Shown piece by piece: positions 2,578-23,427 of a DNA stretch of 37,294 nucleotides. Source of the DNA: Bacteroidota bacterium. GTDB taxonomy: Bacteria; Bacteroidota; Bacteroidia; Bacteroidales; B18-G4. Both the position numbers and the translations under genes were made by a program. The notes beneath the pieces were generated by a model, which worked only from the letters and a program-made list of their open reading frames with translations, did not search any database and was not told the DNA's origin. Positions within the stretch are counted from its first letter, which is position 1; each line of letters begins with the position of its first letter. The DNA is taken from assembly GCA_013202965.1 (NCBI GenBank), contig JABMQZ010000145.1:1-37294 (forward strand), written 5' to 3'.

Positions 2578-3309
2578 ATGACTTTCTACCAAAGCATCTC
2601 CAAATATTACGACCACATCTTTCCCTTAAACAGGATGCAGCTTGATTTTATTAAAACTGCTACAGGACCAGCAGATGATCTGTCAGTTCTTGATATTGGC
2701 TGCGGAAGCGGGAGCCTCTGTATTGAACTGGCCGGCATTTTCAGCAAAGTAACAGGGATCGACCCGGATATAAGTATGTTGAACATAGCGAAGGATAAAG
2801 CCAGGGGCATATACAGCAATCTTCAATTTTATCCCTGCGGGATGCTTGAACTCCAACAGAAATTCAGCGCAGCTTCCTTTGATAGCCTGATATGTTTTGG
2901 CAACACACTGGTACACCTGGATTCGGACGACAACATCCTCAACTTCCTGCAGCAGGCAAAGCATGTTCTTCGTCCAGGTGGCAAACTGATGATACAGATC
3001 ATTCATTATGACCGGATCATTGATCAAAATATTAAAGGATTGCCCGGCATTGAAAATGAGTTTGTGAAGTTTAGCAGGAAATATGCATACCACCCGGAAG
3101 AAAATTTACTGGATTTTGAAACCTTACTTTTCATAAAAGCAGATAAACGGGAGATCAGGAACATGATTCATTTGTATCCCATACGCCAGGCGAAACTGAT
3201 ACAGCTGATCAGGCAATCTGGATTCTCCGACATTAAGGTCTGGGGGAATTTTAAACGTGAAGCCCTGGTTTCGGATAGTATTCCGCTGGTTGTTGAGGGA
3301 GTTGGGTGA
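2578..3309 (+). CDS. class I SAM-dependent methyltransferase
   Basis: This 243-residue protein has the Rossmann-type SAM-binding signature VLDIGCGSGSLCIELA near residue 39, an acidic residue after strand 2 (GIDPD), and the later motif VLRPGGKLMIQIIHYDR. It therefore belongs to the Methyltransf_25/11 group, and its length fits a single-domain enzyme. The substrate cannot be told from sequence. It stands alone between an unrelated peptidase and a convergent membrane-protein gene. The start is supported by the TAnnTTTG box immediately upstream. The last codons (EGVG and stop) lie in a G-rich run with a loose 7-nt rhythm that continues past the stop. Confidence 0.85.
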   Translation: MTFYQSISKYYDHIFPLNRMQLDFIKTATGPADDLSVLDIGCGSGSLCIELAGIFSKVTGIDPDISMLNIAKDKARGIYSNLQFYPCGMLELQQKFSAASFDSLICFGNTLVHLDSDDNILNFLQQAKHVLRPGGKLMIQIIHYDRIIDQNIKGLPGIENEFVKFSRKYAYHPEENLLDFETLLFIKADKREIRNMIHLYPIRQAKLIQLIRQSGFSDIKVWGNFKREALVSDSIPLVVEGVG

Positions 3310-3375: not shown

Positions 3376-3813
3376 TCATTGATTCAGCCACTTCTTAAAG
3401 ATAAAGCCGACACTGGCGCCATAAGCCAAAAAGCCGCCAAGTGTATAAATATTCCAGAATAATTGATCTTTCGTTGCGATAGATTCATACATCAAAGGAT
3501 GAGAAATTCCCCAAAGTGAAATAAGTAACCAGAGCAGAAAACCAAATAACAAACCTTTAAGAGTGCCTGCAAAATTCATATACTTTACTAATCTCGAGTA
3601 TATTAAAGTAAATATGATACCAAAAAAACCACCAATAACTAATTTGGTCCAAAAGAAATAAAAGGCATTGATCTGATCAGGATCAAACTTACCTTCCGGT
3701 ACCATTTGTGGGCCATAGACTATCCTTGATGCAATCGCACCGCTTAAAAATAATGCAATGCCCATAATAAGGCCTGAAATAAAACCCACCAGAAGAACTT
3801 TTTTTACGTTCAT
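3376..3813 (-). CDS. small integral membrane protein of unknown function
   Basis: This 145-residue protein is very hydrophobic, with about four predicted membrane segments: residues ~6-28, ~55-73, ~81-103 and ~118-138. It has no signal peptide cleavage site and no catalytic motif that I recognise. A clear Shine-Dalgarno sequence, AAGGAGTG, lies about 5 nt before the ATG, which is unusual in this window and makes the start firm. The gene is convergent with the methyltransferase and separated from it by about 66 bp. The call rests on the good RBS and a coherent transmembrane pattern. I cannot assign a function. Confidence 0.75.
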   Translation of the reverse strand: MNVKKVLLVGFISGLIMGIALFLSGAIASRIVYGPQMVPEGKFDPDQINAFYFFWTKLVIGGFFGIIFTLIYSRLVKYMNFAGTLKGLLFGFLLWLLISLWGISHPLMYESIATKDQLFWNIYTLGGFLAYGASVGFIFKKWLNQ

Positions 3814-4023
3814 AATTTCACTCCTTTATAATTGATGCTTGTATATTGTATTCTCTGAATTTTATCCTTATTGAGTATTTCGGTTAAGGTCCACAGCTAT
3901 GCCGCGTGTCTCTATTTGTTTCTCTAAAAATACAAAAATATCCCATGCGGTATAGCAAGTGTTATCAATGCGGAGGCCAAGCTTGTTTATATCTATTTTA
4001 CTGTTCAACGCCTGTAAATAAAA

Positions 4024-4264
4024 ATTGTCATTCTGATCCCGTTGAGCGAAGCGAAGCGGGAGAAGGACCCCCATCAAGTTGCAGCGACATCTGTTGATAT
4101 TTCCTGTAAGCTGATTGCATAAATGCTGGTAAAATAATTCTACCAGCTAATTGTAAAAAGCCAACAAGTTCATGCTGCCGGCTTGGTGCAGGAAGAGGGC
4201 AAAGTTATTTGCTGGCTGGGTGCAGTAGCCAGGGGGTCCCTCGTCGCTTCGCTTCTCGGGATGA
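4024..4264. repeat. inverted pair of gcgaagcg-type repeats flanking ~155 bp
   Basis: The segment 4024-4072 (attgtcattctgatcccg, then gcgaagcgaagcggg, then ggaccccc) and the segment 4228-4264 (agggggtccc, then cgcttcgctt, then ctcgggatgac) are related in opposite orientation. They share their arm words with the hairpin at 2331-2381. The enclosed DNA holds no gene. It may be a small non-autonomous element or simply two family members. Confidence 0.45.
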
Positions 4265-4328
4265 CCGTCTTTTATCTGCTAAGCTTAATGATAAACACTA
4301 AAAACCGATTATAGCATTGTTTGCAGAA
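4259..4328 (+). repeat. 70-bp dispersed repeat, copy B
   Basis: This is the partner of 2372-2441: it starts GGATGAC and ends TTGTTTGCAGAA, with the same order of blocks in between (TGCT, AATGA, AAAC, ATTA). It lies directly before the 7-bp-period array downstream of the lanthipeptide operon. Confidence 0.6.
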
Positions 4329-4353
4329 GAGGGATGAGGGAGGATGGATCAGG

Positions 4354-4479
4354 AGTGCCTAGTGCCGAGTGCCAAGTGCCGAGTGATGATTTAGAGTGAA
4401 GAGTTTATAGTGAAGAATTCGGCAATTCGCAATTTCTGATTTCTGGTATCTGATTTCTGATTTCTGGTATCTGATTTCA
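4354..4479. repeat. heptamer array, 18 units in one phase, reaching a stop codon
   Basis: Reading in steps of seven from 4354 gives AGTGCCT, AGTGCCG, AGTGCCA, AGTGCCG, then GTGAAGA-type units, then GATTTCT, GGTATCT and GATTTCT units, without a phase break to 4479. The final unit GATTTCA contains the TGA stop of the minus-strand elimination-domain gene. The unit sequence changes along the array but the period does not. Confidence 0.8.
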
Positions 4480-5373
4480 CCCCCTCTTCTGGCCGATTAG
4501 AGCTCTATGCATTTTCTCCTTATAATGCCGGAACAGCAAATCATAGACCACCATCTCATGCATACGCGGGCTGCTCCTGAATATGCGGTTCATCGACATA
4601 TGGATCAGGCTGGACAGGAAGTCTTTCAGGGGGACTTCCGCTTCCCCTCTTCTATAGTGATCCAGGATAGTATTGACATATTTTTGTCCGGATGATGTTC
4701 TTCTTCGGAGAATATCCTTTAAATAAATCTTGTGTTCGGCATCTTCTCCCTCAATCAAAAGGGTATTGATCCTTTCACGAAAGTTCCTGAATTTCTCCGA
4801 CAACTGCCTGGCAAGCTGTTTATCTTTCCCGAATTCTTTCCCGAAACTGCGGTTCAGTTCAAGCAGCAGATCTTTCTTTTCTTCAAGAGAAATATTAAAG
4901 TCTTGAAGAAAAGAATCAATAGCAAGAATGGCAAACAACCATCTTTCATTTTCGTCCTTACTTTCCCGTTGCTCATTAATTAATTCCATAAAGGCAGAGG
5001 TATCGAGATAAAATAGCTGTTCGGCAAGATCCATCGTCATGCTGCCATATCTTTCAATTTCCCGTTGGTAGGTAGCTGTTTCGATTTTCCAGATGAGGCC
5101 TGATCCCAGCATGGCATTCATTTTATCCTTCAGCATGGGCATCACAAGGCCAATATGCCGCTCATCTGTCAGCCTGAGCCTGTAGCGTATATGAAAATCA
5201 GGATCAGCATAGCGAATAAAAAACCAGCGACCTGCTATCTTTTGATCGATCATGGCTTGAGAAACAGGGTGTAATATATCAAGCAGCAAGCTGTCGGCAG
5301 TCTTAACGCCTGTATATATTTTTAAATACAGCCATTCAGTTCCGGGTACAAATGTTCTTTGCTCAGGCCTCAT
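4477..5373 (-). CDS. LanB elimination-domain protein (SpaB_C / thiopeptide-type bacteriocin biosynthesis)
   Basis: This 298-residue protein corresponds to the C-terminal lyase half of class I lanthipeptide dehydratases, which removes glutamate from glutamylated Ser/Thr to give dehydroalanine or dehydrobutyrine. WFFIRYADPDFHIRYRLR (residues ~50-67) is the conserved Arg-rich element, and SLIHMSMNRIF near the C-terminus carries the conserved His. I chose the ATG at 5373 over the upstream ATG at 5475 because homology begins there and it gives an 11-bp overlap with the glutamylation gene (ATGAGGCCTGA); the upstream start would overlap by 113 bp. The split into two proteins resembles thiopeptide and pinensin systems. 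The gene's stop codon lies in a heptamer repeat array. Confidence 0.88.
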   Translation of the reverse strand: MRPEQRTFVPGTEWLYLKIYTGVKTADSLLLDILHPVSQAMIDQKIAGRWFFIRYADPDFHIRYRLRLTDERHIGLVMPMLKDKMNAMLGSGLIWKIETATYQREIERYGSMTMDLAEQLFYLDTSAFMELINEQRESKDENERWLFAILAIDSFLQDFNISLEEKKDLLLELNRSFGKEFGKDKQLARQLSEKFRNFRERINTLLIEGEDAEHKIYLKDILRRRTSSGQKYVNTILDHYRRGEAEVPLKDFLSSLIHMSMNRIFRSSPRMHEMVVYDLLFRHYKEKMHRALIGQKRG

Positions 5374-7645
5374 GCTTATCCGCTGGAGTTTGATGAAAAA
5401 AGAATACAAATTCATTGGCCATAATGCCGTTTTCTCCTGATACAATACCTTCTTTGCTGTCGAAGAGGAATTCACGAAAACTTACTACTTTCCGGTTTTT
5501 GATCTCTCGCTTGAGTAGACGCAGGCAGCTGATATTTTCCATGTCCAGCCAGAGTTCGTTATCGGATTCTGTCAACGTAAGCTGTCGGGGCATGCTGTAT
5601 TTTGCTCTTATTCCGGCAACTGCAGAAAGCAGCTCATCATCATTCCCTGCACGCTGGACCGGGGCCAGGATATCATCCTTCAGGTTCCAGCTGGCAGACT
5701 GAAGCACGATATTTTTGTAGCTTACCCTTGGCAGATAAAGCGTTTCGCTTTCAAGCGGGCCCCACGAAAACCCCAGGTTTGTCATGATATTTTGCGACTG
5801 CATATCGCATAAGAATGTATATATGGACAGTGCCCCAAAAGAAAAATTATGGGCATTTGACAAATGGGGCAGGATGTATTTATTCAAGCGCTTTGAACGG
5901 AGAACTACCATATTGTTTCGGATCGAAACCATGAGGTCTGATACAGGAATAGCAAAATCAGAATCGACTGAGGAACGTCCCAGGAAGGGAATCTCGTATT
6001 CCCTCAGCACAGGCCTCATCAGGACATTACCTGTACGTTGCTGGGGCAGGTGGACAATCTCAGCCAATATGTGGTCTCCTGCAATTTCCTTTTCGATATC
6101 TGCGATATTCCGGATCGTTTGATGTAGTCCTTCATCAATATAGCAGAATCTGCCGGCCAGGTTGGCCGCACTGCTCCCTCCTGCCGACTCGATCTGTATG
6201 ATGTCTCTGGCTGTATTTTTCTTCCATTTCCCGGGAATCTTCACCAGGGCTGAAAAGCTGGCCGGAAACTTCAACTCAGAATCAGGCAGACTTTCAATGT
6301 CTTTAGGTCCGATTTCTATTTCATCCGTTCCAGATATCAGTGTCTCCTGCAGCTTTCTGTACAGCATTTGATCCACTGCATGCCATCGCATATCTGTTGT
6401 ATGGCCTTTTGTTCCGGGAATTCTGAGCCCATCCAATAAAGGCGATGCATTCGCATGTTGATCATCCGGCAGGTACGCCAGGCCTGCCTCCGGATCCAGG
6501 GCCAGGAGCAGCGGAACTTCCTGCATATCGTAACGCCGGATAAAGGCCTCTTTGAATTTTTCCAAAAATGGGTTTTTGTGAGGGCGTGAGAGCTTCATCA
6601 AAACAGGCAGCACGGACTGAAGGTCTTTTCTGATTTGATCCTTCAGTATGCAGCTTTCCGGATTCAGCTGAAGATCAGCCTGAAGCAGCCACTCATCCTT
6701 GTACGGGATCCCTGATGCAGCAGCAGATTCCCTTATAGATTTGAACACTTCAATTCTATGTGCATTCCCATTAATTTTGAGATCCTGCAATTGATCCCAA
6801 AGGAGCTTCAGATGTGTGAGCAGTTTATGCCCGGCCGGCGACCCATTCAGGCGGTTTAACAATGCCTCATGAAAGCCATTTCCCGTCACGACCGGCTCCA
6901 GATCCGACACCAGAACCTGGTTGTCGATGAGGGTGTGAATGTAAGTACGGGCTTCCTCCTCATCTATTTCCTCAGAAAGCAGCGATCTTGTAAGCTCAGC
7001 AATTCCGGCTCCTGCCGACGCCATTTCAAGGATCATTTTCAGGGAAGAACTGCCCGCTGTGCTTTGCAATTTATATTTTCGGATGCCATCCTCATCACTC
7101 GTATACTCAATATACCTGAAGTCATCGCCAATTTCCCCTAAACTGGTATTGGGAGAGTATTCAAGTTTTTCCCTGACATCCGCATCACTACCCAGATGAG
7201 CTGCCAGGGTACACAGGTATTGCATATCAGGGCGAACATGTAATTGATGCTTACCCGGTGGTGAAATCCTGATGTCTGTCCGGTCTCCGAAGCATCCGCT
7301 GCTGATACCGGCAAAAAGCCCGAAGGGCGTACTCCTGCATGCCATCCTGATTAAGTATTTCAGTAATGTATGCCTGAGCCTGGCAGGATCTTTAATCTTT
7401 TCATCAGCATGATTCAGCCATTGTTCACTTAAATTAAAAAGCACCGGTGACGCAAGATAAAGCGACTCAGAGATGACAGGAATATCATAATAATTTCTGA
7501 GCACTAAATCAAGGTCCCCGGTACTGCTAATCTCTTCAAGAACTTTTAATGACAACAGCGGTGCCCTGAGCAAAAAAGTATCAGCGATCCGGTATTGAGG
7601 ACGATCCATATTTTGATTTATTATTATTAGGGCAATAATAAACAT
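5363..7645 (-). CDS. LanB glutamylation-domain protein (lantibiotic dehydratase N-terminus)
   Basis: This 760-residue protein matches the Lant_dehydr_N domain, which uses glutamyl-tRNA to glutamylate Ser/Thr of a precursor peptide. Family marks are YRIADTFLLRAPLL at the N-terminus, RMACRSTPFGLFAG (residues ~100-113, containing the conserved Arg/Thr cluster) and LPRVSYKNIVLQSASWNL near residue 640. The elimination domain is absent and is supplied by the next gene. Two starts are possible: the ATG at 7645, which overlaps lanC by 19 bp, or the ATG at 7609 (MDRPQYRIAD), which fits the usual family N-terminus better and lies 17 bp after lanC. Neither has a strong ribosome binding site. It is the middle gene of the operon lanC, lanB-N, lanB-C. 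Confidence 0.92.
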   Translation of the reverse strand: MFIIALIIINQNMDRPQYRIADTFLLRAPLLSLKVLEEISSTGDLDLVLRNYYDIPVISESLYLASPVLFNLSEQWLNHADEKIKDPARLRHTLLKYLIRMACRSTPFGLFAGISSGCFGDRTDIRISPPGKHQLHVRPDMQYLCTLAAHLGSDADVREKLEYSPNTSLGEIGDDFRYIEYTSDEDGIRKYKLQSTAGSSSLKMILEMASAGAGIAELTRSLLSEEIDEEEARTYIHTLIDNQVLVSDLEPVVTGNGFHEALLNRLNGSPAGHKLLTHLKLLWDQLQDLKINGNAHRIEVFKSIRESAAASGIPYKDEWLLQADLQLNPESCILKDQIRKDLQSVLPVLMKLSRPHKNPFLEKFKEAFIRRYDMQEVPLLLALDPEAGLAYLPDDQHANASPLLDGLRIPGTKGHTTDMRWHAVDQMLYRKLQETLISGTDEIEIGPKDIESLPDSELKFPASFSALVKIPGKWKKNTARDIIQIESAGGSSAANLAGRFCYIDEGLHQTIRNIADIEKEIAGDHILAEIVHLPQQRTGNVLMRPVLREYEIPFLGRSSVDSDFAIPVSDLMVSIRNNMVVLRSKRLNKYILPHLSNAHNFSFGALSIYTFLCDMQSQNIMTNLGFSWGPLESETLYLPRVSYKNIVLQSASWNLKDDILAPVQRAGNDDELLSAVAGIRAKYSMPRQLTLTESDNELWLDMENISCLRLLKREIKNRKVVSFREFLFDSKEGIVSGENGIMANEFVFFFHQTPADKHEA

Positions 7646-8844
7646 TCATCCCAGCCAGCTGTCTTCATTGAAACAAATGATAAGAGCACGAGCCCGATAC
7701 CTGCCACACCTTCCAGCAGGTCTGCACTTTTTCTCCAGCCACCATATTCCTCGCTATACCATGCTTTATAGCCTGCCAGGCCATCTTTATGGAAAGCCAT
7801 ATTCAGGCAAACATCCAGCCAGTGTATGGCTGCACTCTTAAAGACTTCCATGCCGCTTACATGATATAAATTATTATAAATAAGCGCAATTCCGGAAGCC
7901 CCGTGGCAAATTCCGGCATCCACCACATGGTTATCTCCGGGGTCTTTTCTAAATGTTGTTGCACTTAAAATATTCAAGCCCTTTGAATAAATTTTCTCAT
8001 CGGCCAGTGCCTTCCCGGCCGTAAGAAATGCCAGTCCGATGCCCAGATCACCATAGCACCAGGCCAGGCGACTGTTACTTACCTCCTCCGTGCTTTCCAG
8101 TGCCCAGGACGGGAAAAACGAAATATACTGATTCCGGTCAAGCTCTTGCCGTTCCAGGTATTTCAGGCTGCCCCGGATCATGTGCCGGCATTTTCCGGAT
8201 GCAATTCCGGCAGTAAGGATTTTGGATAGCATGATAATAATTGAGGATATCCCATGTGAGAGACTTATATTATACCCCTTTCTCCCCGTTTCAGAATCCA
8301 GTACAGAGATCCACTTTATGCTCCCATCAGTGTCAATTTCAGCATGTTTTTCCAGTTCATGCAGCATGTTTTTCAAATATGAAGGATCAGGAATTAATCC
8401 TTCAGTTCGTAAAAAATACAATGCAATTCCCATCGCTCCATGCAAATAATCATAATGTCCTTCTCTCATATTTGACATCATGGCCTTATAAAGAATTGGA
8501 TCAAGCGTATCATAGATATTGCCCTTTTCTGCTTTCAAAAACTTATGTTCCACCAGGTGGCCGCACATCCATGCAGTGCCTGCAAGTCCATTGGAAAACG
8601 TATATGCCGAGGAATCCCTGACAGCGTGGTTGAGCGCACGCTCAAGCATATCCGCTGCCAGGTCTTCAAATGAAAGCTTTCCTGTCCAGTCAGCATAATA
8701 AGCACAAAAGCAAGCCAGGCCCGCTTTGCCGCCCATCAGGCCAGCGTCATCGGGAATATGATCCAAGACTACTTGCGCAATCTCATGGATCTTATTTTCC
8801 GTCTGCCGTATATAATTGTCCGGAAGAAAAACCTCCCACTCCAT
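7627..8844 (-). CDS. LanC-like lanthionine cyclase
   Basis: This 405-residue protein is a LanC-family cyclase, which catalyses Michael addition of Cys thiols to dehydrated residues. It has the repeated Gly-rich alpha/alpha-barrel motifs (LMGGKAGLACF, FSNGLAGTAW, YLHGAMGIAL, SLSHGISS, WCYGDLGIGL, ICHGASGIAL, LEGVAGIGLV). The zinc ligands are present: C263 in WCYGD, and C313 with H314 in ICHGASG. H197 (SLSHG) matches the catalytic His region. It is the first gene of the minus-strand operon. The 135-bp gap upstream, shared with the divergent AMP nucleosidase gene, holds no precursor peptide, and no transporter or leader peptidase gene is adjacent. The natural substrate is therefore unknown. Confidence 0.93.
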   Translation of the reverse strand: MEWEVFLPDNYIRQTENKIHEIAQVVLDHIPDDAGLMGGKAGLACFCAYYADWTGKLSFEDLAADMLERALNHAVRDSSAYTFSNGLAGTAWMCGHLVEHKFLKAEKGNIYDTLDPILYKAMMSNMREGHYDYLHGAMGIALYFLRTEGLIPDPSYLKNMLHELEKHAEIDTDGSIKWISVLDSETGRKGYNISLSHGISSIIIMLSKILTAGIASGKCRHMIRGSLKYLERQELDRNQYISFFPSWALESTEEVSNSRLAWCYGDLGIGLAFLTAGKALADEKIYSKGLNILSATTFRKDPGDNHVVDAGICHGASGIALIYNNLYHVSGMEVFKSAAIHWLDVCLNMAFHKDGLAGYKAWYSEEYGGWRKSADLLEGVAGIGLVLLSFVSMKTAGWDECLLLP

Positions 8845-8950
8845 ATCTATTAATACCCAAAACGTGAAAATGTCCCCCTTTTTTTTTAACTATTTTTTAT
8901 TGCTGGAGGTTTTTCAGGTCTCAGTCCTTAAGCTATTGGCATAAAAACAG

Positions 8951-8958
8951 TATTTTTG
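8951..8958 (+). promoter_or_regulatory. Bacteroidota -7 box for AMP nucleosidase/holA
   Basis: TATTTTTG matches TAnnTTTG and lies 21 nt before the ATG at 8980, leaving a leader of about 15 nt. No TTTG stands at the usual -33 distance. Confidence 0.4.
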
Positions 8959-8979
8959 TATGAAATCTGAAAGGATGAA

Positions 8980-9783
8980 ATGAGCATGAAAACAAAAGAA
9001 GAAATTGTAAAAAACTGGCTACCGCGCTATACGGGCGAAAAGCTTGAAAACTTCGGGAAGTATATCCTGCTAACCAATTTTCACAAATATGTAGAGTTAT
9101 TTGCCGCATGGAACAAGGTAAAGATCATGGGGGAAAACAGGCCCATGCCCTGTGCCACAGCCAACGATATCACCATTATTAACTTTGGGATAGGAAGCGC
9201 CAATGCCGCCACCATCATGGACCTGCTTAGTGCCACTAAGCCGAAGGCCGTGCTTTTCCTTGGAAAATGCGGTGGGCTGAAAAGGAAAAATGAAGTAGGG
9301 GACCTGATCATACCGATCGCCGCAATCAGGGGTGAAGGTACTTCGGATGATTATATGCATAAATCAGTTCCGGCACTGCCCGCCTTTAATCTTCAAAAAG
9401 CCGTTTCCACTACAATCAGGGATTTCAAAAGAGATTACTGGACAGGAACCGTTTATACTACCAATCGCAGGGTTTGGGAGTATGATGAATATTTCAAGGA
9501 GCATCTGAGAAAGACCCGCAGCATGGCCATCGACATGGAAACAGCGACGATATTCATTGTTGGATTCCAGAATGAGATCCCGTCAGGGGCATTGCTGCTG
9601 GTCTCGGATCAGCCCATGATCTCCAGTGGTGTCAAAACCGAAGAAAGCGATGGCAAGGTTACGGAGGAATTTGCTGAAGACCATCTCAAAATAGGCATTC
9701 ATTCCCTGAAAATGCTTATTAATAAAGGCTTAACAGTAAAACACCTTTATTTTGATTACGAAGAAGAGATGGATGGGATATGA
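8980..9783 (+). CDS. AMP nucleosidase (short Bacteroidota type)
   Basis: This 267-residue protein belongs to the nucleoside phosphorylase/nucleosidase superfamily and would hydrolyse AMP to adenine and ribose 5-phosphate. Motifs include NFGIGSANAATIMDLL, FLGKCGGL (phosphate/ribose loop), DMETATIFIVGF (base and ribose contacts) and LLLVSDQPM. It is about half the size of the enterobacterial Amn enzyme and lacks its N-terminal regulatory domain, as expected for the Bacteroidota type. Two in-frame ATGs occur, at 8980 and 8986. The stop overlaps the holA start by four bases (ATGA), so the two are probably co-transcribed and translationally coupled. It fits the purine genes nearby (purL, purE, hpt). 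Confidence 0.9.
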   Translation: MSMKTKEEIVKNWLPRYTGEKLENFGKYILLTNFHKYVELFAAWNKVKIMGENRPMPCATANDITIINFGIGSANAATIMDLLSATKPKAVLFLGKCGGLKRKNEVGDLIIPIAAIRGEGTSDDYMHKSVPALPAFNLQKAVSTTIRDFKRDYWTGTVYTTNRRVWEYDEYFKEHLRKTRSMAIDMETATIFIVGFQNEIPSGALLLVSDQPMISSGVKTEESDGKVTEEFAEDHLKIGIHSLKMLINKGLTVKHLYFDYEEEMDGI

Positions 9784-10781
9784 AATTTGAAGACATCCTT
9801 AGCGATCTGAAAAACAAGATATACAAGCCCGTATATTTTCTCCACGGTGAAGAAGAATATTACATCGATGTGCTCTGCGATTATATGGCAGAGCATGTAC
9901 TTGATGAGGCAGAGAAGGGATTTAATCAAAGCATTATATACGGCAAGGACACAGATGTTGGCGGTATCATCGATACGGCCAGACGATTTCCTATGATGTC
10001 CAATTATCAGCTTGTCATTGTGAAAGAAGCCCAGACGATCAGGGAGATTGCTGAGCTTATAAAATACACGGACAATCCTGTCACCTCCACCATCCTGGTG
10101 ATCTGTTACAAGCACAAAGCTTTCGATGCCAGGAAAGCCCTGGTCAAAAGCATTGCTAAAAAAGGTGTCGTTTTCAGGTCTGACCGCCTTTATGATAATC
10201 AGATTCCTTCCTGGATAAATACCCAGCTTAAGCTGGAGGGGTATTCCATTACTCCTGATGCGGCCAGGCTGCTCACCGGACATCTTGGGACTAATCTCTC
10301 TAAAATCAAAAATGAGTTGGGCAAGCTGATGATCAACATCAAAACCGGTGATGTGATCGATGAAAATATCATTGAAGAAAATATTGGCATCAGCAAGGAT
10401 TTCAATATTTTTGAACTGCAGAAAGCCATGGGCAATAACGATGCTTATAAGGTAAGCCTGATCTGCCGGCATTTTGCCGCCAATCCAAAAGTCTATCCCT
10501 TTGTGCTGACCATTACACTTTTATACCAGTTCTTTGCCAAACTCCTTATCTTCCATTCACTGAAGGATAAATCCAAAGACAATGTTGTCGGGTCTGAATT
10601 ATCGGTCAATCCCTTTTTTGCCAGGGATTACAGGGCTGCTGCAAGAAAATTTAACAAAAGCATGACGCACAGGGCCATCAGCCTCCTGCGTGAATATGAC
10701 TTGAAATCCAAAGGCCTCAACAATGCATCCGCAACTGACGGAGAACTGCTTCGGGAGATGATTTTCCGGATGATGCATTAG
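9780..10781 (+). CDS. holA: DNA polymerase III delta subunit
   Basis: This 333-residue protein matches HolA, the clamp-loader subunit that opens the beta sliding clamp. The N-terminal ATPase-like fold starts with KPVYFLHGEEEYYID, a typical HolA opening. It continues through RRFPMMSNYQLVIVKEAQ and the helical lid region (AARLLTGHLGTNLSKIKNELGKL), then the C-terminal collar domain containing FNIFELQKAMGNND. The length is normal for the family. The start overlaps the upstream AMP nucleosidase stop in ATGA. The gene ends at a TAG followed within 12 bp by a heptamer repeat array. Confidence 0.93.
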   Translation: MKFEDILSDLKNKIYKPVYFLHGEEEYYIDVLCDYMAEHVLDEAEKGFNQSIIYGKDTDVGGIIDTARRFPMMSNYQLVIVKEAQTIREIAELIKYTDNPVTSTILVICYKHKAFDARKALVKSIAKKGVVFRSDRLYDNQIPSWINTQLKLEGYSITPDAARLLTGHLGTNLSKIKNELGKLMINIKTGDVIDENIIEENIGISKDFNIFELQKAMGNNDAYKVSLICRHFAANPKVYPFVLTITLLYQFFAKLLIFHSLKDKSKDNVVGSELSVNPFFARDYRAAARKFNKSMTHRAISLLREYDLKSKGLNNASATDGELLREMIFRMMH

Positions 10782-10936: not shown

Positions 10937-13900
10937 TTACTTTTGCTTTTCGCACCATTTACGGGCATTCACGAATGCTTCTATCCAGGGTGATACGAGA
11001 TCATCTTGTCTGTCTTCAGGATAATATGCCCATTGCCAGGGAAAAATAGCTCTTTCGAGATGCGGCATCATGGCAAGATGGCGGCCATCATTGGAACAAA
11101 TGGCTGCTGCATTGAAGTCGGAGCCATTCGGGTTTCCGGGATAGCTTTCATAGGTATATTTCGCAGGGATAATATATTTATCACGATAATACGGGAAACA
11201 GAACCTTCCTTCGCCATGTGCAACCCATATTCCCAGTCTTGAGCCCGACAAGCTTCCAAGCATTACAGAATCATTCTCCTCGATATTTACATTCAGGAAA
11301 GCCGATTCAAATTTCCCTGATTTATTGTGTTTCATCCCGGGTTGTTCCGGATGCTCCGGGTATACAAGACCCAACTCCACCATAAGCTGGCAACCATTGC
11401 AGATTCCCAGGCTGAGGGTATCATTCCTAGAATAATACATATCAAGTGTTTCCTTGGCTTTTGGATTGAACAGGAAAGCTCCTGCCCAGCCTTTTGCAGA
11501 TCCCATCACGTCGGAATTGGAAAACCCACCCACAAATACAATGAAATTGATATCCTCCAATGTTTCTTCACCGGAAATCAGGTCCGTCATATGGACATCC
11601 TTCACATCAAAGCCTGCAAGGTGCATGGAATACGCCATTTCCCGATCGCCATTTACTCCCTTTTCCCTGATAATGGCCGCCTTAATGCCTGTTTTCTTTG
11701 TCCGCCCGGGCTCTATGCCATAGCGGGTAAAAGTTCCTTCGAATGCCTTGCAAAAATTAAAACGAAGGTCCTGCATAACATAATTTTCAAAACGCCTTTT
11801 TGCAAGTGATGGTTCTGTTTGCAATCGATCAAAGAGGTATGATGTTTTATACCATTGTTCCCTGTAATAATTTATATCAAATGAATATTCAACTTCTTCA
11901 TGCCGGATATTCACTTTCAGGTCCTTGATTGTTTTTCCTAAAAGATGATATTCAATGCCATTGTCCTTCAGTATTTTTTCTATTTTCTCTTTTTCCCTGA
12001 CCTGTATCAGCAGCCCGGGATTCTCGCTAAAAAATAATTTAACAGCATCCTTTTCTCCGATGCTGCCAAGGTTCAATTCCATACCCATATCGTTTACGGG
12101 AAATGTCATTTCAAGCAATGCAGTAAGCATTCCTCCGGCTGAAATATCATGTCCGGCAAGGATCAGTCCTTCATTGACACATTGCTGCAAAGTGTTGAAG
12201 GCCCTGACAAAATAGCCGGGATCTTTTACCGTAGGAGTATTTGTTCCCAGCTCATTAAGAAGCTGGGCAAAGCTACTGCCACCCAGGCAAAACTTGTCCT
12301 TTGAAAAATCAATATAAATAATGGAGGCATCGTAATGCAATGCGAGGAAGGGGCTTACTGTTTTTGTCAGATCACTGCATTCTCCCATGGCCGAGATGAT
12401 CACTGTTCCCGGAGCCAAGACTTTTTTGCCATCGGGATATTTTTGTGTCATTGAGAGAGAATCTTTCCCTGTCGGGATGTTAATGCCGAGGCTGATGGCA
12501 AAGTCGCTTACTGCTTTTACAGCATTGTACAGCCGGGCATCCTCACCTTTATTTTTAGCAGGCCACATCCAGTTTGCACTCAAGGAAATGCCCTTCATCC
12601 CATCCTGTATCGGTGCCCAGATGATATTGGTCAATGATTCTGCAATTGCCAATACAGAGCCATTTTCGGCAGAAACCAGGCCGGCGACCGGAGCATGGCC
12701 AATGGCGGTGGCAATGCCTTTTTCACCACGGTAATCGAGGGCGGCAACTGCAACATCATTCAGCGGCAGCTGGATGGGGCCCGTGCATTGCTGTTTGGCA
12801 ACCCTGCCCGTAACTGAACGGTCAACTTTATTGGTCAGCCAGTCTTTGCAAGCCACGGCCTCGATCTGAAGCAGGTCGGCCAGGTAGTTTTCAATATTTT
12901 TTACATCATATTCCGGTTCCTTGAAAACATAATTTGATGTACTGTCAGACATTGTTGTTTTTGGTGGTTTGCCAAACAGATATTCCAGTTTAAGGTCAAC
13001 GGGATTGTTGTCTTTTTCCTCAAACACAAAGTTCATATCACCCGTAACTTCCCCAACCCTGTACATAGGAGCCCTTTCTCTTTCGGCGATATCTTCAAGG
13101 AGGTCAGCATCTTTTCTCTTTATGATCAATCCCATGCGCTCCTGTGATTCATTGCCAATGATCTCTTTGGCGGAAAGGGTAGGATCCCCGATGGGCAATT
13201 TGTTCAGCTGGATCTTTCCACCGGCTTCTTCAACCAGCTCCGATAATGAATTCAGATGCCCTCCGGCACCATGGTCATGGATAGAAACAATAGGATTCTT
13301 CACACTTTCCGACATCGCGCGTATGGCATTCGCTACCCTTTTCTGCATTTCAGGGTTGGCGCGCTGAACAGCATTCAGCTCAATGGCATTCCCAAATTGT
13401 CCGGTATCAACAGAGGAAACTGCACCGCCACCCATGCCGATACGGTAGTTATCACCCCCAAGAACAACGATGATATCTCCGGCTTCCGGGATGTCTTTTT
13501 CACTGTCTTCCAATTTTCCAAAACCAACACCCCCGGCGAGCATGATCACTTTATCATAGCCATAGTTATTATCCTGGCTTTCATGTTCAAAGGTGAGCAG
13601 GCTTCCACATATCAGTGGTTGGCCGAATTTATTTCCGAAGTCACTGGCTCCGTTTGACGCCTTGATAAGGATCTCGGCTGGTGTCTGGTATAACCAGGGC
13701 CGTGATTTAGTGAATGATTCCCATTTACGCTTATCTTCCAGGCGTGGATAAGCAGTCATATAGACCGCTGTTCCCACAAGGGGGATGCTGGCTTTTCCAC
13801 CGGCCAGCCGGTCACGGATCTCTCCACCGGTACCTGTAGAAGCACCGTTAAACGGCTCTACCGTGGTAGGGAAATTATGCGTTTCGGCCTTTAACGACAG

Positions 13901-14623
13901 TACCGTTTCAATGTTCCTGGTTTCAAAATAATCAGCCTTATCCTGTGTTTCCGGGGCAAATTGTTCTACAAGAGGGCCAAGAACAAAAGCCACATTGTCT
14001 TTATAGGCAGAGACCAGTTTGTTGGGATTTACCTTTGAAGTTTTCTTGATCAGGGCAAATAGTGAATCTCTTTTTTCTTTACCATCAATAATGAAAGTAC
14101 CATTAAATATTTTATGCCGGCAGTGTTCTGAGTTGACCTGTGCAAAACCATATACCTCACTGTCGGTGAGTTTTCTTCCGATCTTGCCGCTTATTTCATT
14201 CAGATATCCGATCTCTTCCTCACTCAGTGCAAGTCCCTCGCTATCGTTGTATGCCTTGATATCATGAAGAAATGTCACCGGCTCAGGCCTCCTGTCTACG
14301 GTAAACAACTCCTGGTCGAGATTGTTGTAAGGTGCCTGTAGCATGGGGTCGAAAGCCTCTTCCGGATCATCAGTTTCAACAAAGTGTTCAATTCTTTCAA
14401 TTCCGCTCATTCCCATATTCCGGGTAATCTCAACAGCATTTGTACTCCAGGGGGTGATCATCTCCTTGCGGGGGCCGATAAATGTACCGCTAAGCTCTTC
14501 TCCCGGTACAGGCTCACACTCACCGAACAACCAGTATAGTTTTTCACGGTCGCTGGGCGAAAGAGGTTCCCTCACTTGCAGTGCGTAAAACGATTTAGGT
14601 GATATTTGGTAAAAAAGAATCAT
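10937..14623 (-). CDS. purL: phosphoribosylformylglycinamidine synthase, large single-chain form
   Basis: This 1228-residue enzyme carries out the fourth step of purine synthesis, FGAR to FGAM, using ATP and glutamine. The N-terminal part is the FGAM synthase linker and first ATP-binding half ([48 protein letters not shown]). Then come the second half ([26 protein letters not shown]) and a C-terminal class I glutamine amidotransferase with [10 protein letters not shown] (Cys ~1073) and [10 protein letters not shown] (His of the triad). It is full length and intact. It is transcribed alone, convergent with holA. A TAnnTTTG box at 14669-14676 suggests a leader of about 40 nt; I see no PurR-like or riboswitch structure in that short stretch. 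Confidence 0.96.
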
Positions 14624-21560: not shown

Positions 21561-22198
21561 TTCATGCGAATCAAGGTAATCCCATCTCTCAAAGGAAGTA
21601 CAAAACTATCGAGTTCACGATCATTTATGACCATTTTGTTGAATTTCTGGATACCCTGTGTTTCACGATCACCGGACTGCGCTTTGCGTAAAACTTTTCC
21701 ACTCCAAAGCGTATTGTCGGCCATGATAAGCCCGCGAGGGTTTAATTTATCCAGGGCAAGCTCCAGGTAGTCAGGATAGTGTTCCTTATCCGCATCAATA
21801 TAGATAAGATCGAAAGTTTCCTCCATTGTCGGAATAATATCCAGGGCATTCCCTGAATATTGCACGATGACCTCCTGCAAGCCGGCTTCTATGAAATAAC
21901 GTCCGGCAATTTCCTCCACTTCAGGATTCATGTCGATGGTATGCAGCCGGCCTCCTTCTGCCAATCCTTCTGCGAGACAGATGGCCGAGTATCCGGTATA
22001 GGTCCCTATTTCAAGTATGCTGACCGGCATCAGCAGCTTGCTGATAAAAGACAGGAACCTCCCCTGCAGGTGGCCACATAGCATATTCGGGTAAGGGACG
22101 GTGAGGTTTGTTTCCCTGTCGAGCTTGTGGAGTAGTTCGGGCTCCTGCGGACAGTGATCTTCAAGATAAGCGATGAGTTCTTCGTTCAGGAAATTCAT
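21536..22198 (-). CDS. caffeoyl-CoA-type O-methyltransferase
   Basis: This 220-residue protein is a SAM-dependent O-methyltransferase of the Methyltransf_3 family. The SAM motif ILEIGTYTGYSAICLAEGL is at ~60-78, an acidic strand-2 end follows (LHTIDMN), and the metal and substrate loops are YIDADKEHY (~133) and MADNTLWSGKV (~160). Bacterial members methylate catechol-like or unknown small molecules. Its start overlaps the M16 peptidase stop in ATGA, so they form a two-gene operon. The C-terminal tail after IRM is encoded by heptamer repeat DNA and is probably not part of the ancestral protein. Confidence 0.92.
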   Translation of the reverse strand: MNFLNEELIAYLEDHCPQEPELLHKLDRETNLTVPYPNMLCGHLQGRFLSFISKLLMPVSILEIGTYTGYSAICLAEGLAEGGRLHTIDMNPEVEEIAGRYFIEAGLQEVIVQYSGNALDIIPTMEETFDLIYIDADKEHYPDYLELALDKLNPRGLIMADNTLWSGKVLRKAQSGDRETQGIQKFNKMVINDRELDSFVLPLRDGITLIRMKSEIRDQK

Positions 22199-23427
22199 AT
22201 TGATTTATAGATTATAGAACTGAGCAATGCAGGGTCAAAAATTTCATTGGCAACCTCAAGCAGTTCTGAGGAGGTGATCCTTTCAATCTTCTCATTGATA
22301 TTTTTCACGCTAAGTAAGCGATGATCGTGCATACAACTCCTGCCGCCACTCAACATTACGTTTATATTGGAATCGAAGGCTATGGCAATCTGTCCTTTAT
22401 ATTGTTTTTTTGCCTGCGACAGCTGCAGGCTTCCCAGTTTTTCCGTTCGCATCTTCTTCATTTCCTTCATCACCAATGCGGTGGCTTTTTCTGATGTGCC
22501 ATTATCTGTGCCAAGATAGATCCCCCATACACCGGTATCGGAATAAGGGTAGTAAAATGACTCGACACTATATGCATAGCCATGTTTCTCCCTGACCATC
22601 ATGTTGAGTCTGGAATTTAAGCCGGGTCCGCCAAGAATGTTATTTAGCAAGCCAAAAGAAAACTTTTTATGGTCACCACGTGCATAGGCCCTGTTACCTA
22701 TAATGCTATGACTCTGGTATGTACGGCGATTCTCATTGATACTGAAAGCTTTATATTCAATGGGTGGAATTCTTGTTATTCCGTTTTGATTCCGGCAGCT
22801 TTCCTTAAAGTATTTCTCAATGGTATGGATAAACCTTTTGAAGCTTACCCCACCTACCGAGCAGATCACCATGCGATCAGTGCAATAATTGCTCCCGAAG
22901 AATTCCATTATCTGCTTTCTGCTAAATGCCTTTACGTTTTCCGGTTTCCCCAGAATGGAGCGGCCCATGGCATGGCCTGCGAACAATGCACCTTCGAATT
23001 CGTCATAGATCAGGTCTGATGGGGTATCCTTATATGAATTGATCTCTTCGATTATAATGTCCTTTTCCTTTTTCATTTCCCTTTCGGGGAAAACGGAATG
23101 GAAGATGATATCCGATAATAATTCAGCAGCACGCGCATACCAAGTGTTCAGAAAAGAAGTGTATAAACAGGTATATTCTTTGGTTGTAAAGGCATTGAGT
23201 TCACCGCCAACACTCTCCAAACGATTAAGGATATGAAATGCTTTCCTGCGCTCCGTTCCCTTGAAGATCATATGCTCGATAAAATGCGCCATGCCGGTTT
23301 GGCCTTCCGGCTCATCCCTGGTGCCGGTGTTGATGAAGACACCAAGGTGTGCCACCGGGCTTTGGGTTGGGATATGCAGCAGCCTGATGCCGTTCTCAAG
23401 TTCGTAATATTCGGGTTCCATTACCAT
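22195..23427 (-). CDS. M16 family zinc metallopeptidase
   Basis: This 410-residue protein has the inverted zinc motif HFIEH (H48, E51, H52) and the downstream Glu ligand region IIIEEINSYKDTPSDLIYDEFE (~125). It has the two-lobe layout of mitochondrial-processing-peptidase-like enzymes, and the second lobe includes a substrate-binding region around GLNSRLNMMVREKHGYAYSV. No signal peptide is visible, so it is probably cytoplasmic. Starts at 23427 and 23421 are both possible. Two heptamer arrays lie upstream. It is translationally coupled to the O-methyltransferase by a 4-bp overlap. Confidence 0.93.
   Translation of the reverse strand: MVMEPEYYELENGIRLLHIPTQSPVAHLGVFINTGTRDEPEGQTGMAHFIEHMIFKGTERRKAFHILNRLESVGGELNAFTTKEYTCLYTSFLNTWYARAAELLSDIIFHSVFPEREMKKEKDIIIEEINSYKDTPSDLIYDEFEGALFAGHAMGRSILGKPENVKAFSRKQIMEFFGSNYCTDRMVICSVGGVSFKRFIHTIEKYFKESCRNQNGITRIPPIEYKAFSINENRRTYQSHSIIGNRAYARGDHKKFSFGLLNNILGGPGLNSRLNMMVREKHGYAYSVESFYYPYSDTGVWGIYLGTDNGTSEKATALVMKEMKKMRTEKLGSLQLSQAKKQYKGQIAIAFDSNINVMLSGGRSCMHDHRLLSVKNINEKIERITSSELLEVANEIFDPALLSSIIYKSI

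Follow-up and report, generated by a model that had tools for sequence, protein, structure and literature searches.

A split LanB dehydratase, and GG leaders together with C39 proteases, are already known in class I lanthipeptide clusters of Bacteroidetes (PMC7268733). Examples of Bacteroidota class I clusters that combine GG leaders with a C39 exporter are the one on the Spirosoma oryzicola plasmid NZ_CP089546 and those at our loci L199, L206, L207, L213 and L214. They share with the locus described here the LanC cyclase, LanB, a peptidase-containing ABC exporter and HlyD, and in the Bacteroidales clusters LanB is split likewise and the genes follow in identical order. Nevertheless, these clusters carry one to six Cys-rich GG precursors, whereas here none is linked or recognised and the exporter lies on another contig. 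The pinensin cluster of Chitinophaga pinensis also has a split LanB. An earlier note on this DNA had been reminded of pinensins by the split dehydratase; the architecture is indeed pinensin-like, but there is no special link to Chitinophaga, because the layout LanC-LanB-LanB'-C39ABC-HlyD is ordinary in many Bacteroidales relatives.

Homologues of lanthionine synthetases that are kept without a precursor have also been described. The Agr-linked LanM-like protein CA_C0082 of Clostridium occurs without lanthipeptide genes and acts in Agr signalling; it is of class II and its catalytic residues are absent (PMC10301443), whereas the system found here is of class I and complete. In gut Bacteroidales, that is, in the same order, a survey found no LanB and examined stand-alone members of the LanC family without the zinc-ligand motif, to which no lanthipeptide was assigned (PMC10352776). 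In contrast to those proteins, the LanC of our locus has intact zinc ligands and LanB partners.

What is new is that complete class I enzymes are fixed in a family with no recognisable precursor. A whole bacterial family keeps the complete enzymes and the exporter without a neighbouring precursor, and LanB-LanC operons that are predicted to be catalytically complete occur in uncultured Bacteroidales, an order surveyed as LanB-free (PMC10352776). As lanthipeptide mining looks for precursors beside the enzymes, cluster-based mining would call this system an orphan. The paired exporter and a GG peptide linked to a CHAT gene offer concrete candidates.

The enzyme operon and its separated exporter

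The window, i.e. the whole stretch of 37,294 nucleotides analysed, is the entire contig C119 of a draft genome, G000 (3.3 Mb, 93% complete, 284 contigs). The operon, at 4477-8844 on the minus strand, encodes LanC and the two parts of LanB as separate ORFs. LanC (7627-8844, 405 aa) matched PF05147 LANC_like at 1.5e-40 and was aligned to NisC and LANCL. The glutamylation protein, which is the N part of the split dehydratase (5363-7645, 760 aa), matched PF04738 Lant_dehydr_N at 2.2e-141 and was aligned to NisB and MibB. The elimination protein (PF14028/thiopep_ocin; 4477-5373, 298 aa) matched Lant_dehydr_C at 2.8e-65 and TIGR03891 at 2.5e-65. Each of the three Pfam matches lies well outside chance expectation and spans nearly the full profile, and none of the genes has an internal stop. 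We placed the start of the elimination gene at the ATG at 5373 instead of the mechanical GTG at 5475, on account of the resulting 11-bp overlap with the preceding gene. LanC in turn overlaps the glutamylation gene by 19 bp, and overlaps of these lengths make a single operon likely.

Active sites were assigned by alignment with the solved relatives NisB, MibB and NisC, with functional roles taken from the NisB and NisC residues. All the catalytic residues tested are kept. The glutamylation protein has R100, R104, T106, D140, D324 and R499 (R83, R87, T89, D121, D299 and R464 of NisB), the elimination protein has R63, R65, R108 and H258 (R784, R786, R826 and H961 of NisB), and LanC has D132, H197, R259, C263, Y264, C313 and H314, so that both its zinc ligands (C263, C313 and H314) and its catalytic His (H197) are intact. 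The three features of a class I lanthipeptide synthetase, made up of LanB and LanC, are thus present, and the enzymes look active. The earlier note had described LanC and the glutamylation and elimination proteins as one operon with full motifs, and both its coordinates and its motifs were right.

PEARLs are homologues of LanB-N that lack a fused elimination domain. The glutamylation protein resembles them in this general respect and might extend the C-terminus of a peptide by an amino acid, for instance Cys, instead of acting in dehydration. We regard this as extremely improbable, because the same operon encodes LanC and an elimination protein with all four of the residues named above intact, and because the solved structures nearest to the LanB parts are dehydratases or thiopeptide-type proteins. 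An example of a PEARL that adds Trp has been described (PMC10979984).

Regarding the neighbours, LanC is divergent from the AMP nucleosidase (AMN) and holA-like genes (8980-10781, plus strand; NCBIfam AMP nucleosidase, DNA_pol3_delta), which served as a synteny anchor, and a PurL-like gene (10937-14623, minus strand; name inferred from sequence) was the second locus anchor. The other flank of the operon carries a weakly DUF1440-like gene, a methyltransferase (2578-3309, plus strand) and an M28 peptidase with a PDZ domain (28-2226). An M16 peptidase is encoded at 22195-23427, and for neither peptidase did we see a link to the operon; M16B proteases are known lanthipeptide proteases in other systems (PMC8960859).

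No transporter or leader protease adjoins the operon, and contig C119 contains neither a precursor nor an exporter. The claim that no exporter is nearby therefore holds for the contig, but not for the system as a whole. The profile search of the draft found LanC, LanB and a C39-peptidase ABC exporter once each in the entire genome, and this sole exporter is at C232:1190-3379 (C232:1190-4732 together with HlyD). The distant peptidase-containing ABC transporter that the earlier note had suggested looking for thus exists, and the feature of Bacteroidota GG-type clusters, a C39 ABC exporter with HlyD, is present here but unlinked. After the exporter come HlyD, an HsdR_N protein, a 198-aa protein, a DUF3822 protein and an RsmD-like gene. 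In the sister-genus genomes G004 and G006, LanC, LanB-N, LanB-C, C39ABC, HlyD and HsdR_N follow one another uninterrupted, and in G005 all of them except LanC are together, LanC being beside holA on a separate contig. The C39 exporters of the sister genera are 74-76% identical to the one on C232 and orthologous to it. The contiguous operon in the sister genera implies that it broke after the elimination gene in the genus of the window. In G001 the exporter is divergent to a 67% ortholog of the methyltransferase of the window, an adjacency that is probably a remnant of the former neighbourhood.

The side of the operon on which the sister genera have the exporter is here a 663-bp intergenic region with repeat-like DNA (3814-4476). 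A repeat unit, GGTCCCTCGTCGCTTCGCTTCTCGGGATGAC, is found in it at 4235-4265, and a 20-base part of this unit occurs exactly on another contig (L257). The stretch 3376-4476, just 3' of the elimination gene, is wholly different in an 86%-identical relative (L036 and L021 compared), and such a complete mismatch between two close relatives points to a rearrangement-prone spot.

We give a probability of about 60% to the reading that these are functional class I enzymes whose exporter and substrate are in trans, the substrate being one that the leader models do not recognise. According to this reading, the three genes would be the enzyme half of a vertically kept operon made of LanC, the LanB glutamylation and elimination genes, the C39 ABC exporter and HlyD, which would have broken after the elimination gene in this genus and left the exporter half intact on C232. 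The glutamylation protein, with Glu-tRNA, would attach glutamate to Ser/Thr of a precursor whose gene is elsewhere, the elimination protein would remove the glutamate to give Dha/Dhb, and LanC would add Cys thiols and close the (methyl)lanthionine rings. Cutting the leader after GG and exporting the product would be the task of the C39 ABC-HlyD pair. We infer the catalysis, the shared use of the exporter and the substrate in trans; the Cys-rich GG precursors found beside LanC in clusters with the same enzymes and exporter support the same chemistry.

Conservation and selection in the family

LanC was present in all nine genomes of the family, as against 22 of the 393 genomes sampled from the order, and G060, a genome from a different family, had the enzymes too. 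On the LanC side the family genomes have holA, an AMP-ligase-like gene and PurL, with AMN in some of them (the PurL-like gene of the window has matches in G002, G005, G007, G008 and G060); their exporter side carries HsdR_N, the 198-aa protein, DUF3822 and RsmD. G060 has the order LanC-AMN-holA-AMP ligase-PurL as in the family, with no precursor in the gap. This looks like the vertical inheritance of a chromosomal trait; since the LanC tree leaves its deep nodes unresolved, the argument for vertical descent is one of synteny.

The dN/dS values between this genome and G002 were 0.28 for LanC, 0.21 for LanB-N, 0.19 for LanB-C and 0.04 for C39ABC, and those of the neighbouring AMN and holA were 0.09 and 0.20. 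Values of 0.19-0.28 indicate that the enzymes are under purifying selection and are not drifting freely. Furthermore, the catalytic residues of LanC are conserved in G000-G006 and G060, and the tested residues of the operon are intact in G000-G006 where covered, with the exception of an N at the D140 position in G005. Nevertheless, LanC proteins of the other genera are only 25-39% identical to the LanC of the window, versus 74-76% for the exporter. In G007 and G008 the LanC proteins encoded at the same locus (L030 9201-10400 and L031 3389-4606) have P and H in place of the equivalents of R280 and Y285. The fast change of LanC and this loss of residues suggest a possible shift of function in some members of the family. 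The LanC proteins of G007 and G008 have a WCHG motif as in eukaryotic LANCL and keep the zinc ligands.

These data also bear on the idea that the operon is a decaying relic which lost its precursor and survived by chance. It would account for the missing linked precursor, for the separated exporter and for the key LanC residues lost in G007 and G008. However, we consider it very unlikely, given the residues that are intact in the other genomes, the constraint on the enzymes, which is similar to that on holA, their presence throughout the family and the lack of internal stops.

The search for a precursor

The short-ORF listing and the leader-HMM scan gave no GG-leader ORF either in the 135-bp gap between LanC and the AMP nucleosidase gene (8845-8979) or in the 663-bp region, in agreement with the earlier note, which had reported both gaps with their exact lengths as free of a precursor. 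No precursor with an LxLxKx5L leader, GG and a Ser/Thr/Cys core is linked to the operon in these gaps, and the short-ORF listing found none in the LanC-side gap of the nearest relative. We rejected a Cys-rich ORF at 3906-4097 (plus strand), as it has no leader and sits in the repeat-bearing intergenic DNA.

In other families with the same enzymes, short Cys-rich GG-leader genes lie beside LanC, usually upstream (12 of 20 loci, plus G042). The cut-off of NF038153, the class I lanthipeptide leader model, was passed by all 10 of the precursors of this kind that were tested. In the nine family genomes, which are drafts of 75-95% completeness, the same model gave no real match, the two weak matches (G003 and G005) being inside other genes, and two purpose-built leader HMMs found no Cys-containing precursor in any of them. 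In the 93% complete draft of this genome, NF038153 and both leader HMMs likewise found no class I precursor, and scanning about 650 kb of it directly revealed no GG-leader gene besides the peptide on contig C157 that is discussed below. The genome profile search uses a first-look filter, and the positive controls of the precursor search are few, namely one linked (G042) and one unlinked (G030 C59).

Some observations were made along with this search. The LanC of G042 (L026 177-1361) is split into two frames by a stop and adjoins a clear class I precursor. G030 has an unlinked Cys-rich GG-leader peptide (L173 1330-1581) and a stand-alone LanC in the same genome. A second weak match to TIGR04149 (C207, L005) was discarded because there is no GG-leader ORF at the match, and a frame rich in Ser and Cys at the end of C33 (L250 10410-10589) proved to be an out-of-frame reading of a coding sequence rich in Ala, Lys and Pro. 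A Cys peptide with EGKCG repeats on C13 was also set aside, as it is a real RiPP-like precursor of HvfA/HvfB (MNIO) type, encoded next to a maturase of its own. This system, at L230 2171-3389, consists of the MNIO maturase and a 93-aa peptide with KCGEGKCG repeats and represents a different RiPP in the same genome as the lanthipeptide enzymes.

An ordinary Cys-rich precursor could still lie in sequence that the draft lacks, or where a contig breaks off. In favour of this, the genome is 93% complete in 284 contigs, and the contigs of several relatives stop near LanC or within LanB. However, the search would have had to overlook the precursor in nine genomes; nothing interrupts the stretch from the enzymes to the exporter in G004 and G006, and G000, G002, G005, G007 and G008 contain the LanC flank; furthermore, the NF038153 matches in the family are spurious. 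We therefore find this explanation improbable.

The CHAT-linked GG-leader peptide

The only GG-leader gene that the two leader HMMs found in this genome is at C157:10709-10825 and encodes a Cys-free peptide of 39 aa, MKILTEDLRNITVLSEIEMNKIFGG-DNTGTTTEDDEAWL. A TPR-CHAT gene (PF12770, 4.3e-52) follows it directly downstream. The peptide is kept in all four members of the genus and has a counterpart in G007; its dN/dS of 0.12, from a short alignment, makes it appear to be under selection. Its core is Thr-rich in this genus (TGTTTEDDEAWL). In G030 the GG peptide of the CHAT pair is directly upstream of a C39 ABC-HlyD exporter, which makes the C157 peptide a likely cargo of the exporter of this genome.

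It is conceivable that the enzymes act on this peptide, LanB dehydrating its Thr residues and LanC doing something else or using a second partner. In favour of this are its standing as the only GG-leader gene found, its conservation, its Thr-rich core and the position of its equivalent in G030. However, without Cys no internal lanthionine is possible. In addition, the leader fits the exporter half of class I leaders but not the LanB half. Its exporter half (C-half) scored 5.6 bits, compared with 2.4-22 for 18 canonical class I leaders, and its LanB half (N-half) scored -0.7 bits, compared with 18-30 for the canonical leaders and with a random 99th percentile of -1.5. The ranges obtained were 5.6-8.3 bits for the C-half and -1.2 to 4.1 bits for the N-half. 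Furthermore, pairs of CHAT and GG peptide are also present in three genomes without a LanC match (G015, G022 and G046). Judged from these features, the C157 peptide is a weak candidate for the LanB/LanC substrate, and we hold that the enzymes are unlikely to act on it in this manner.

A related idea, which we consider quite unlikely, is that a domesticated synthetase at a housekeeping locus modifies the Cys-free, CHAT-linked and signal-like peptide, which would be exported by the same C39 ABC-HlyD; its products would be dehydrated and unbridged, or LanC would have a new use. The two options raised in the earlier note, a substrate encoded elsewhere or a non-standard peptide, both fit these results. 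The genome search for class I leaders was empty and the sole GG peptide has no Cys; the genome check for short GG-leader peptides that had been proposed thus yielded one peptide but no class I leader. We prefer the reading in which the class I enzymes are functional and both their exporter and their substrate are encoded in trans.

We found no published description of systems made of CHAT and a GG-leader peptide in the literature searched. A PADLOC scan of the CHAT and HsdR_N proteins returned generic matches only. The pair recurs in Bacteroidales as a very small GG-leader peptide, in most cases acidic and without Cys, adjoining a TPR-CHAT gene. Besides the C157 pair of this genome (L033 10709-13714), the loci are L122, L140 (412-3785), L141 (1474-5145), L142 (1483-4657), L149 (1221-4209), L143 (824-4104) and L170 (1429-1536).
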